DNA of 64,000 bases, taken from NCBI RefSeq assembly GCF_002240055.1, contig NZ_CP016753.1, positions 434,001 to 498,000 of the forward strand. Reading direction: 5' to 3'. Numbering within the stretch: position 1 is the first letter of the stretch; every line of letters begins with the position of its first letter. The notes under the pieces are model-generated. The model made no database searches. It saw only the letters and a program-made list of their open reading frames with translations, and was not told the DNA's origin. The translations under genes and the position numbers were made by a program. Shown here in pieces: positions 1 through 62,977 of the stretch. Source of the stretch: Leptotrichia sp. oral taxon 498 (GTDB lineage: Bacteria; Fusobacteriota; Fusobacteriia; Fusobacteriales; Leptotrichiaceae).

Positions 1-1719
1 GTGATTTATGGAAAAATCTCGCATAAAGCAAGTGCATTACCGCATGCTCAATTCCACCAATATATTGGTTTACAGGTGTCCAAGCATCTGCATCCGCTTT
101 TTCAAAAGGTTTATCCGCACTGTGAGAATCTAAATATCTCAAATAGTACCAAGATGAATCAACGAAAGTATCCATCGTATCAGTTTCTCTTCTACCTTTT
201 TTCCCATTCGGCAAAATCACATTCTTAAACTCTTCCGAAGTTTCAAGCGGATTCCCTTTCCCATTAAATTCAATATCAGTAGGAAGTTTCACAGGCAAGT
301 TTTCTTCTTCCTCCAAGTAAATATTCCCATCTTCATCATAAATCACAGGAATTGGAGTTCCCCAATATCTTTGTCTACTAATCAACCAGTCATGAAGTCT
401 ATAATTTACCGTTTTCTTACCAAGCCCAATTTTTTCCAATTTTTCAGTAATTTTCTCTTTTGCTTCATTACTATTTAATCCATTAAATTCTTCTGAGTTT
501 ACCAGTATTCCTGGAACTGTTAAAGCATTTTCCAATTTTTCAACAGAAACTTCTTCTAAATTTCCATTTTTATCAACAGGATTTACAACAATTTTCAAAT
601 CCAAGTTATATTTCTTAGCAAATTGAAAATCTCTTTCATCATGTGCAGGTACCGCCATAACAGCTCCTGTCCCATAATCCATCAACACATAATTTGCAAC
701 CCACAACTGCACTTTTTCACCATTTACAGGATTAATCACATAAAGTCCAGAAAATACTCCTTCTTTTTCCTTATCTTCTGCCGTACGAGCGATTTTATCC
801 TCATTTCTCATTGCTTCAACTTTTTCTCTAATACTAGGATTTTCCTTTAAAATAACTTCCTCAACTAACGGATGTTCTGGTGCAACAGTTGCATAAGTAA
901 CTCCATAAAGCGTATCAGGTCTTGTTGTAAACACAGAAATTACAACTTCTCCCTTGTCATTTAATTTCAAATGTGTATGTCCATTATTTTCAAAATTGTA
1001 ATCTAAAATAAAGTCAACTTCAGATCCAGTTGATTTTCCAATCCAGTTTTTTTGCATAGTCAATACTTGTTCAGGCCAATGTCCTCTAAGTTCTTCATGC
1101 CCTTGCAGCAATTCTTCAGCATAATCAGTTATTTTAAAATACCATTGCGACAATTCCTTTTGAATAACATCAGTTTTACTATGTCTCCAGCATTTCCCAT
1201 CTTCGACTTGTTCATTTGCCAAAACCGTATTACACTCAGGACACCAGTTTACAAAAGATTTTTTCTTGTAAACCAATCCTTTTTATACATTTCAATAAAA
1301 AATTTTTGATTCCATTTGTAATACTCTGGAGTGTAAGTACTAAGTTCTCTATCCCAATCATAAGAAAGACCCATAAGTTTCAACTGTCTTCTCATATTGT
1401 CAATGTTCGCTTTAGTCCATTTCCCAGGATGAGCCCCATGGTCAATCGCCGCATTTTCAGCAGGTAGCCCAAAACTATCCCATCCAAACGGATGCAACAC
1501 ATTAAACCCTTTCATTTTCTTATATCTAGCAATCGCATCTCCAATCGCATAATTTCTCAAATGCCCAACATGCAATTTCCCTGACGGATACGCAAACATC
1601 TCAAGCACATAATAATTCTCTTTCCCATCGGCTTTATTTTCAGATTTAAAAACATCTTTTTGGGCCCATTTGTCTTGCCATTTTTTCTCAATTTCATTAG
1701 GATTATATTCCTTAATCAT
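1..1719 (-). CDS. leuS: Leucyl-tRNA synthetase, 3'-partial, with one frameshift
   Basis: Class I aminoacyl-tRNA synthetase that charges tRNA-Leu in the cytoplasm. The start at 1719 follows a GGAGGAG ribosome site. The HIGH-type motif HVGH lies at residues 50-53, and the editing-domain motif TTRPDTLYG is encoded near 900-930. The gene runs off the left edge in the stretch [14 protein letters not shown], about two thirds through a normal protein of roughly 850 residues, so the KMSKS loop is outside the window. The frame breaks near 1278-1280: the residues after YKKD are out of frame and a stop follows at 1249. Restoring one G in the GG pair (AAAAAGG on the coding strand) gives [16 protein letters not shown], the expected sequence. 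Identity is certain; the break is probably a sequencing indel. Confidence 0.96.
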
Positions 1720-1789
1720 TATTTTTTCTCCTCCATTTTTCAGTATTTATAAATTTTTTATTTAATATCCTTAAAAAATAATTTGTCTA

Positions 1790-1818
1790 TTGACATTTCT
1801 GCAAAAATATTTTATAAT
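1790..1818 (+). promoter_or_regulatory. Perfect sigma70 consensus promoter of a putative antisense RNA
   Basis: TTGACA at 1790-1795, a 17-nt spacer and TATAAT at 1813-1818 match the bacterial housekeeping consensus exactly. Transcription would start near 1825 and run into the hairpin at 1844-1873, producing an RNA of only about 50 nt that converges on the small-peptide transcript of the opposite strand. No ORF follows it. Confidence 0.7.
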
Positions 1819-1824
1819 TAATTA

Positions 1825-1876
1825 CCAAATAAAAACATGTGTGAAAAATAAGAGCGTTACTGCTCTTATTTTTTTA
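1825..1876 (+). ncRNA. Putative antitoxin-like antisense RNA
   Basis: A short RNA is inferred between the consensus promoter at 1790-1818 and the terminator at 1844-1873. Its 3' half overlaps the end of the opposite-strand peptide transcript. Its 5' half carries AACATGTG (near 1834-1841), which recurs at 2105-2112. It could therefore pair with CACATGTT in codons 2-4 of the 37-codon peptide mRNA. Known type I systems of the par/Fst family use this geometry of convergent RNAs, shared terminator and distant direct repeats. Function is inferred from layout alone. Confidence 0.45.
1844..1873. terminator. Bidirectional intrinsic terminator shared by convergent small RNAs
   Basis: A 12-bp stem (1844-1855 with 1862-1873) encloses a 6-nt loop; its outer arms form T-rich tracts on both strands. 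It would end both the + strand antisense RNA and the - strand peptide mRNA. The stop codon of the 29-residue ORF (1866-1868) lies inside the stem. Confidence 0.75.
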
Positions 1877-1955
1877 TCCACTTTAAAAATCGATAACTAA
1901 ATTCTATTGTTTTTACAATACATAATATAATCGTTGCTACCCTAATCCATTCCAT
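1866..1955 (-). CDS. 29-residue hydrophobic peptide, type I toxin-like (second ORF)
   Basis: ATG at 1955 follows AAAGGAGAG at a spacing of about 9 nt; the ORF ends in TAA within the terminator stem. The peptide opens MEWIRV, has a short hydrophobic stretch (residues 7-14, ATIILCIV), then an aromatic/basic tail ending WIKK. Size, a possible membrane-inserting helix and a basic C-terminus resemble type I toxins such as Fst, Ldr or TxpA, but I recognise no specific family. It appears to be the second cistron of the transcript that starts near 2128. It is too short for standard ORF calling. Confidence 0.5.
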   Translation of the reverse strand: MEWIRVATIILCIVKTIEFSYRFLKWIKK

Positions 1956-2001
1956 ATTCAGCACTCTCCTTTGATTAAATAGAAGGGAGGGAGTCAGGGA
2001 A

Positions 2002-2115
2002 TTATTCCCCTTTAAACCTCCTAATCATTTTGATAATCCATTTTATTATCTTTATCAGATAATCTATAGTTGTAATGAATAAAATAATTATCTCCCAAAT
2101 TTTTAACATGTGCAT
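2002..2115 (-). CDS. 37-residue hydrophobic peptide, type I toxin-like (first ORF)
   Basis: ATG at 2115 follows GGCGGAGGGAG, a strong ribosome site almost at the predicted 5' end of the mRNA. The peptide is dominated by Ile/Leu (residues 9-28, IIILFITTIDYLIKIIKWII) and ends in a basic tail with KMIRRFKG. A second in-frame ATG lies two codons downstream. The predicted mRNA runs from about 2128 to about 1844, carries both peptides and has little untranslated sequence. A single amphipathic or membrane helix with a cationic tail is typical of type I toxins; activity is inferred. Confidence 0.55.
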   Translation of the reverse strand: MHMLKIWEIIILFITTIDYLIKIIKWIIKMIRRFKGE

Positions 2116-2134
2116 TTTCTCCCTCCGCCTCATA

Positions 2135-2163
2135 ATTGTACTATATTTTGGAATTTTTGACAA
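2135..2163 (-). promoter_or_regulatory. Promoter of the two-peptide transcript
   Basis: On the minus strand, TTGTCA (2158-2163), a 17-nt spacer and TACAAT (2135-2140) lie directly upstream of the 37-residue ORF. The predicted start near 2128 leaves a leader of only about 13 nt. Confidence 0.65.
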
Positions 2164-2205
2164 TTATTTATCTTAATAATATTTTTTCAATTTTAAAAAC
2201 TTCTG

Positions 2206-6352: not shown

Positions 6353-6589
6353 AAAAAAAATCCAGTCTACCGTTCTAATCTGATTTTTGGTTGCCTGTAA
6401 CTGTTACAGGTGGTAGTCATATTTACAAAAGTACAGGATCCGTGCTAAGTTTTTTTACCGCCGTGATTTTTCTGAAACAATTTTATAAAGAGATGACCCC
6501 ATTAAAAAATGAGTAAAGCCCAAAAACAATTTAATTAGTATCGAATAGACCAGAAATTTATTTTTAAATAATTTAGAAATTTCCTTTAC
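6353..6589 (-). ncRNA. Putative small transcript or small-peptide locus of unknown nature
   Basis: Minus-strand TTGACA (6619-6624), a 17-nt spacer and TATACT (6596-6601) form a near-perfect promoter inside and just past the 3' end of the Crp/Fnr gene. The predicted RNA contains a hydrophobic reading frame ending at 6455, then a perfect palindrome CCTGTAAC-A-GTTACAGG (near 6395-6411), and ends with a weak hairpin and eight T. No well-spaced start codon for the hydrophobic frame is visible (the 64-codon version begins with TTG at 6649, before the promoter). It could be an sRNA, a small membrane peptide or a relic. Confidence 0.35.
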
Positions 6590-22253: not shown

Positions 22254-22282
22254 TTGACAAAATAAAAAAAATCTTATATAAT
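22254..22282 (+). promoter_or_regulatory. Consensus promoter of tRNA-Thr
   Basis: Perfect TTGACA (22254-22259), a 17-nt spacer and TATAAT (22277-22282), 11 bp before the mature tRNA. Confidence 0.85.
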
Positions 22283-22293
22283 AACTATGTTAT

Positions 22294-22369
<76 letters not shown>

Positions 22370-62948: not shown

Positions 62949-62977
62949 ATTATATATTATTTCTCAATTAATGTCAA
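62949..62977 (-). promoter_or_regulatory. Perfect consensus promoter of the FadA-like operon
   Basis: Minus-strand TTGACA (62972-62977), 17-nt spacer and TATAAT (62949-62954), consistent with strong constitutive expression. Confidence 0.8.

Follow-up and report, generated by a model that had tools for sequence, protein, structure and literature searches.

The question raised by this locus is whether a message for two very small hydrophobic peptides, opposed by a short antisense RNA, is a type I toxin-antitoxin module, and if so, whether it belongs to the par/Fst family and what the second peptide is for. The window, by which we mean the whole 64-kb stretch of Leptotrichia DNA that was analysed, holds this convergent gene pair at 1790-2163, with a two-peptide mRNA on the minus strand and an RNA of ~50 nt on the plus strand. 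Our best explanation, to which we assign a probability of about 0.77, is a new family of type I toxin-antitoxin module, which would combine par/Fst-like RNA control with a bicistronic message for two homologous small membrane peptides. The features needed for the argument are given below in the order of the mRNA.

2135-2163, minus strand: mRNA promoter TTGTCA-N17-TACAAT (TTGTCA 2163-2158, 17 nt, TACAAT 2140-2135)
2119-2126, minus strand: ribosome site 1 (SD1), GGAGGGAG, at the extreme 5' end of the mRNA
2002-2115, minus strand: peptide 1, 37 aa, ATG at 2115, stop ending at 2002; a cationic amphipathic helix ending RRFKGE
2095-2112, minus strand: site in the peptide-1 start region targeted by the antisense RNA, CACAUGUUAAAAAUUUGG with core CACAUGUU, from the repeat and duplex prediction
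1996-2011, minus strand: predicted hairpin with the peptide-1 stop codon in its loop
1986-1993, minus strand: intergenic C-rich element CUCCCUCC, complementary to ribosome site 1, predicted helix -17.1 kcal/mol
1964-1969, minus strand: ribosome site 2 (SD2), GGAGAG
1866-1955, minus strand: peptide 2, 29 aa, ATG at 1955, stop ending at 1866; membrane-helix-like with a basic tail
1844-1873, both strands: shared bidirectional terminator, an inverted repeat with a 12-bp stem and a 6-nt loop
1824-1876, plus strand: predicted antisense (antitoxin) RNA, ~50 nt, from promoter and terminator
1825-1841, plus strand: copy of the peptide-1 start region at the 5' end of the antisense RNA, CCAAAUAAAAACAUGUG, from the repeat and duplex prediction
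1790-1818, plus strand: antisense promoter TTGACA-N17-TATAAT, 12/12 consensus match

Both promoters, the 37- and 29-residue reading frames and the bidirectional terminator had been described in the initial annotation, and all of them are present. The mRNA is predicted to start at ~2128-2130. The terminator arms (1844-1855 and 1862-1873) are complementary at 12 of 12 positions; the second arm contains the stop codon of peptide 2, so that the terminator overlaps the last peptide-2 codons, and it is predicted to end both convergent RNAs. Three perfect TTGACA-N17-TATAAT sites were observed in the 64-kb window against 0.05 expected; the other two lie at 22254-22282 (+), directly upstream of a tRNA at 22294, and at 62949-62977 (-). 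Rfam gave no relevant antitoxin RNA match in window 1750-2200 at E<=10, and elsewhere in the window it recognised a 6S RNA at 6355-6559 (-) with 50.7 bits.

The search of relatives for conserved peptide pairs, which the initial annotation had suggested, found such pairs in Leptotrichia and in other Fusobacteriales. Near-identical copies of the locus (96-99%) are present in G003, G006 and G022, and divergent intact copies in other Fusobacteriales, namely G039 (which also carries a truncated peptide-1 relic), G055, G035, G077 and, twice, G046. The module was found as well in phage phiHugo (OR492275.1) and on IMG/VR contigs, of which the ones that were read further have terminase genes or other genes for phage structure, as called from translations. 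Different families and phages keep the two peptides in tandem, and in every genome having an intact peptide 1, peptide 2 lies directly downstream. The relatives share the order peptide 1, peptide 2, terminator, copy of the peptide-1 start and antisense promoter, and the layout of the ten versions compared below begins with promoter, SD1, peptide 1, stop-codon hairpin, C-rich element, SD2 and peptide 2. The control elements have their counterparts too: promoter-like sites for the two-peptide mRNA stand at the equivalent position in most relatives, GGGAGG-type sites in place of ribosome site 1 in all of them, stem-loops in the position of the shared terminator, and TTGAC-type sites at the place equivalent to the antisense promoter.

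Outside this range, 72,556 plasmid records gave no match with the window peptide 1 and a relative's peptide 2 as queries, and two scans of genome contigs, from which records close to the window's own genome may be excluded, gave no confirmed relative. A match in a Vibrio phage (E = 3) was judged to be chance. These results do not prove that the module is absent outside Fusobacteriota.

The copies offered some further observations. In phiHugo (L144, 3842-3934) the deposited annotation places an out-of-frame ORF of 30 residues (MKNAFLGDNHND...) over peptide 1, and the conserved peptide 1 (MHSWEIII...) begins 7 nt after the annotated ORF start in a different frame, an example of how such modules get missed. 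In this locus and in L030, L131-L134, L139 and L028, an ORF that overlaps peptide 1 out of frame begins at an upstream ATG with a better distance from the ribosome site, and this ATG may act as a decoy start. The gene directly downstream of phage loci L131-L134, L141 and L144 often encodes a small protein resembling phage Arc/ribbon-helix-helix repressors and starts beside the antisense promoter.

The repeat which the initial annotation had held to be complementary to codons 2-4 of peptide 1 was confirmed and found to be part of a longer match. The 8-nt direct repeat AACATGTG lies at 1834-1841 and 2105-2112, and its second copy reads in the mRNA as CACAUGUU, i.e., codons 2-4. The complementarity in the window exceeds these 8 nt (CCAAAU...ACAUGUG) and gives a predicted duplex of -17.2 kcal/mol. 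Taken by itself, the repeat of the window is improbable to a modest degree only, its alignment score being reached in 1.1% of shuffles. The peptide-1 start region was compared with the segment between terminator and antisense promoter in ten versions of the locus, drawn from Leptotrichia, other Fusobacteriales and prophages, G055 and V131 being close relatives. Each of the ten repeats 12-18 nt from around the start of its own peptide 1 at the 5' end of the antisense RNA. The mean alignment score was 14.5 for cognate and 9.0 for non-cognate pairs, and none of 100,000 partner permutations among the ten matched the cognate score. The predicted duplexes averaged -22.5 kcal/mol for cognate pairs (range -17 to -25) versus -8.9 kcal/mol for non-cognate ones, of which the strongest were confined to the closely related G055/V131/V139 group. 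Most versions have a copied sequence of their own, such as TGATTTTACATTACTGG in L140, TATGTTCRATTTAATAGG in the second G046 copy and ACAATGTTTTTTTGG in the first, and the copied sequences share one end point, directly after a GG. The antisense and start sequences of the two G046 modules do not match each other; the same has been reported of par_pAD1 and par_EF0409 (PMC7472228). As far as can be judged from sequences, the antisense-to-start matching is beyond chance and limited to cognate partners. A target-site duplication as origin of the repeat was rejected on two grounds: the first copy falls within the start of peptide 1, preceded by a conserved promoter and ribosome site, and the register of the repeat is identical in every locus.

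The fold predicted for the message has a second common trait. A hairpin with the peptide-1 stop codon in or beside its loop is predicted at the equivalent place in 10 of 10 versions, with differing stems, and it is followed in every version by a C-rich element complementary to ribosome site 1. Partition-function folding paired SD1 with this element at P 0.93-1.00 in nine of the ten, while the shuffled-intergenic controls for nine versions gave SD1 pairing of 0.15-0.66. For the window the predicted masking is weak (P 0.36 vs 0.11 shuffled). In half of the versions SD2 is predicted to be masked as well, by the second half of the element (5/10, P 0.61-0.91). In Fst RNA I a 5' stem-loop masks the Fst ribosome site (PMC7472228), and we read the C-rich element as a probable counterpart of it, built differently.

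The two peptides, MHMLKIWEIIILFITTIDYLIKIIKWIIKMIRRFKGE (peptide 1) and MEWIRVATIILCIVKTIEFSYRFLKWIKK (peptide 2), have related profiles (HHalign 94.9%, a kind of score that short hydrophobic helices can inflate) and appear to be homologous to each other. What they have in common is a hydrophobic helix, in most cases carrying a central acidic residue, and after it K/R, K-W and a tail of basic residues. Of the two, only peptide 1 is clearly amphipathic (muH 0.36-0.59, against 0.15-0.33 for peptide 2); from this difference it follows that the two are probably not interchangeable.

The initial annotation had made its case depend on the frames being conserved and under purifying selection in relatives. 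We found dN well below dS in 10 of 11 peptide comparisons, for example for peptide 2 between the window and G002 (dN 0.16 vs dS 0.81) and for peptide 1 between G035 and G077 (dN 0.21 vs dS 0.84); in two of the ten, dS was near saturation. The ratio dN/dS was 0.04-0.24 for peptide 2 in the pairs where dS was computable and 0.09-0.35 for peptide 1 in most pairs. The exception is peptide 1 of the Fusobacterium versions V139 and G055, with dN 0.15 above dS 0.06; the low synonymous rate would fit a constraint from an overlapping ORF of the kind noted above. The sequences thus point to purifying selection on both peptides in most comparisons. The region does have many short frames, and short frames in AT-rich DNA with accidental promoters might have produced such a picture; this chance origin is refuted by the conservation of both frames across families, the cognate-only antisense match and the purifying selection, and we regard its probability as practically negligible.

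No Pfam, NCBIfam or PADLOC profile fits either peptide, matches being found below cut-off only, and weak matches to Vpu, PSM-alpha, holin and others were judged compositional. Two of them bear on other functions for the pair. The peptides could be a secreted antimicrobial pair, similar to the leaderless two-peptide bacteriocins, under antisense control and not an addiction module. The cationic amphipathic nature of peptide 1 would suit this, as would the weak match of one relative to a PSM-alpha peptide profile (below cut-off, E 0.002), but beside the phage and prophage copies examined, where some neighbours were profiled, there is no evident transporter or immunity gene, and an antisense RNA with a locus-specific start match fits type I control. 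We consider an antimicrobial pair very unlikely. The location on phages and prophages and a PHROGs scan in which peptide 2 weakly matched a holin family (E = 0.71) could instead indicate phage lysis peptides, a holin with its antiholin, of which the chromosomal copies would be relics. Against this, the phiHugo copy has a promoter and a terminator of its own and is flanked by tail genes and the tape-measure gene, the copies in G035 and G046 (its first) lie slightly upstream of terminase genes, and conserved chromosomal copies exist outside evident phages; lysis peptides are very unlikely indeed. The type I reading is the one retained here.

Within the type I reading, the division of roles between the peptides is informed by the decay of the module in Leptotrichia, where it is located between a promoter and leuS. 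In G004, which lacks the module, the same promoter stands 104 nt upstream of leuS. G008, G009 and G010 have two broken frames and neither terminator nor antisense region. In G002 (L025) peptide 1, the terminator and the antisense gene are absent, while peptide 2 remains intact, preceded by the old promoter and a good ribosome site. G021 (L114) has a solo relative of peptide 2 with 46 residues and a different tail, and no intact solo peptide 1 was found among the genomes searched. Since peptide 2 is kept without antisense RNA in G002, it may not be toxic alone, and this small sample suggests that peptide 1 is the toxin and peptide 2 harmless by itself. The leuS gene of the window deserves a separate remark. 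It is open for 156 residues at 1249-1719 (-), then the frame shifts and the remainder continues below 1249 in another frame; Leptotrichia relatives have an intact leuS frame of ~900 residues, and there is one strong match only in this genome. The break is possibly a homopolymer sequencing error, or a real break in an essential gene.

The initial annotation had left the choice between two toxins and a toxin with a partner. The two-peptide message stood, and the solo peptide 2 of G002 favours the latter, with peptide 1 as the probable toxin and peptide 2 as its partner. In its strict form, peptide 1 would be the sole toxin and peptide 2 a non-toxic helper, modulator or immunity-like peptide on the same mRNA. 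The copying of only the peptide-1 start by the antisense RNA, the solo peptides 2 in G002 and G021, the lack of an intact solo peptide 1 and the difference in amphipathicity all agree with this form; the genomes concerned are few, the G002 peptide 2 may be poorly translated or a recent relic, and the homology of the peptides is as easily read as two toxins. We put this strict form at a little short of an even chance. Two equivalent toxins on one message, each toxic alone, would accord with both peptides being small, hydrophobic, cationic, conserved and related, and with the predicted masking of SD2 by the C-rich element in five of ten versions. Yet peptide 2 persists without antitoxin in G002, and SD2 is out of reach of the antisense RNA, so two equivalent toxins seem unlikely to us.

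With peptide 1 as probable toxin and peptide 2 as partner, the module would work as follows. A single promoter would give an mRNA with its first ribosome site at the 5' end, where the intergenic C-rich element could mask it; in several relatives the second ribosome site is predicted to be masked too. The strong opposing promoter would constitutively supply the antisense RNA of ~50 nt, which could contact the mRNA at the loop of the shared terminator, and whose 5' end would pair with the peptide-1 start and block translation. When the antisense supply drops, because the element is lost or transcription is stopped, the presumably longer-lived mRNA would be freed and translated. Peptide 1 as a cationic amphipathic helix, probably together with the membrane-helix-like peptide 2, would then act on the inner membrane and stop growth. 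One may go further and suppose that the two peptides are an obligate pair as effector, in which an amphipathic toxin acts together with a membrane-helix partner that is homologous to it and encoded on the same message, with one C-rich element masking both ribosome sites and one short antisense RNA governing the pair. This is a doubtful step; if true, Fusobacteriota would have their first type I family, and their phages would carry it as a cargo unit.

With this family, type I systems would reach a phylum of medically interesting oral and gut bacteria, the Fusobacteriota, together with its phages. The locus has what a type I system in general consists of, a small hydrophobic peptide gene and a complementary antisense RNA, the existence of which we infer. 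A literature search of incomplete coverage found no type I system for Fusobacterium, Leptotrichia or Fusobacteriota. According to a 2025 paper, such systems were known only from Proteobacteria, Firmicutes and Tenericutes before its own case, msoT1/msoA1 of Microcystis, which it describes as the first outside these phyla (PMC12390103). That module resembles ours in lying outside the three classical phyla and differs in belonging to Cyanobacteria and having a single toxin. Fusobacteriota are apparently a new phylum for type I systems. The conserved two-peptide message poses the question of toxin plus toxin versus toxin plus partner, and the loci form a natural set of locus-specific antisense sequences that could tell how modules may stay mutually independent, G046 carrying two that differ.

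Other two-peptide type I cases were found in yonT/yoyJ/SR6 and sprG1, both differently built. The yonT/SR6 (yoyJ) system of the Bacillus subtilis prophage SP-beta is likewise a prophage type I system in which one antisense RNA faces two toxins on one message (PMC5848175). There the overlap of the antisense RNA is with the 3' end of yonT and the 5' end of yoyJ, a gene that is broken in other species. Here the antisense RNA overlaps the second gene at its end and matches the first at its start; the two peptides are both conserved, and they are mutually related. In sprG1/SprF1 of Staphylococcus aureus two toxic peptides also come from one type I mRNA (PMC10579593; PMC4147584), but they arise from two in-frame starts of one frame, unlike the two genes here, each of which has its own ribosome site. 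A side observation leads to Listeria: one relative of our locus, L126, has at 1334-1477 (-) a below-threshold Rfam match to the Listeria sRNA rli48 (32.5 bits against a gathering score of 100, E 0.019 over 26.7 kb). In our own reading, a small hydrophobic peptide with a basic tail, VKDVLEEIKTVLEIVTLAVALITLRKRDKNKDK, could be encoded on the opposite strand of the rli48 consensus. Since rli98 and rli48 are reported to be mutually antisense (PMC4179725), the pair may be an unrecognised type I module.

The closest likeness is to par/Fst of pAD1, and here the initial annotation was borne out in the RNA geometry, with its conservation and cognate-only matching, and not in the peptide sequences. The sequence anatomy has predicted convergent RNAs with a shared bidirectional terminator, and direct repeats for pairing at the toxin start that match only in cognate combination. 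The common points with par/Fst (PMC7472228) are the convergent promoters, the shared bidirectional terminator and an antisense RNA of ~40-50 nt, here a predicted one; distant direct repeats through which the antisense RNA is complementary to the toxin start; locus-specific repeats that keep loci independent; and occurrence on mobile elements as well as chromosomes. In par/Fst the toxin ribosome site is masked by the folding of its own RNA; here such masking is predicted strongly for the nine other versions, through an intergenic element, and weakly for the window. The Fst family is defined by a P/D/S/TXXXG motif in the membrane helix and a tryptophan before the charged tail (PMC7472228). By inspection, both window peptides have a W before the basic tail and neither has XXXG. 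PF13955 (Fst/Ldr) matched neither peptide at E<=10 and gave nothing over the cut-off in 98 Fusobacteriota genomes, and membership of the Fst family by sequence was rejected, the peptides lacking a match to its profile. The module further differs from par/Fst in having two peptides in place of one, with two conserved reading frames in all intact loci; in its predicted mask, a C-rich element past the first gene and not a 5' stem-loop; in its terminator, which overlaps the second reading frame, while the Fst overlap stops short of the coding sequence (PMC4147584); and in its hosts, Fusobacteriota and not Firmicutes. By analogy, then, the locus would work like Fst/par, but by sequence it is not a member of Fst/par.
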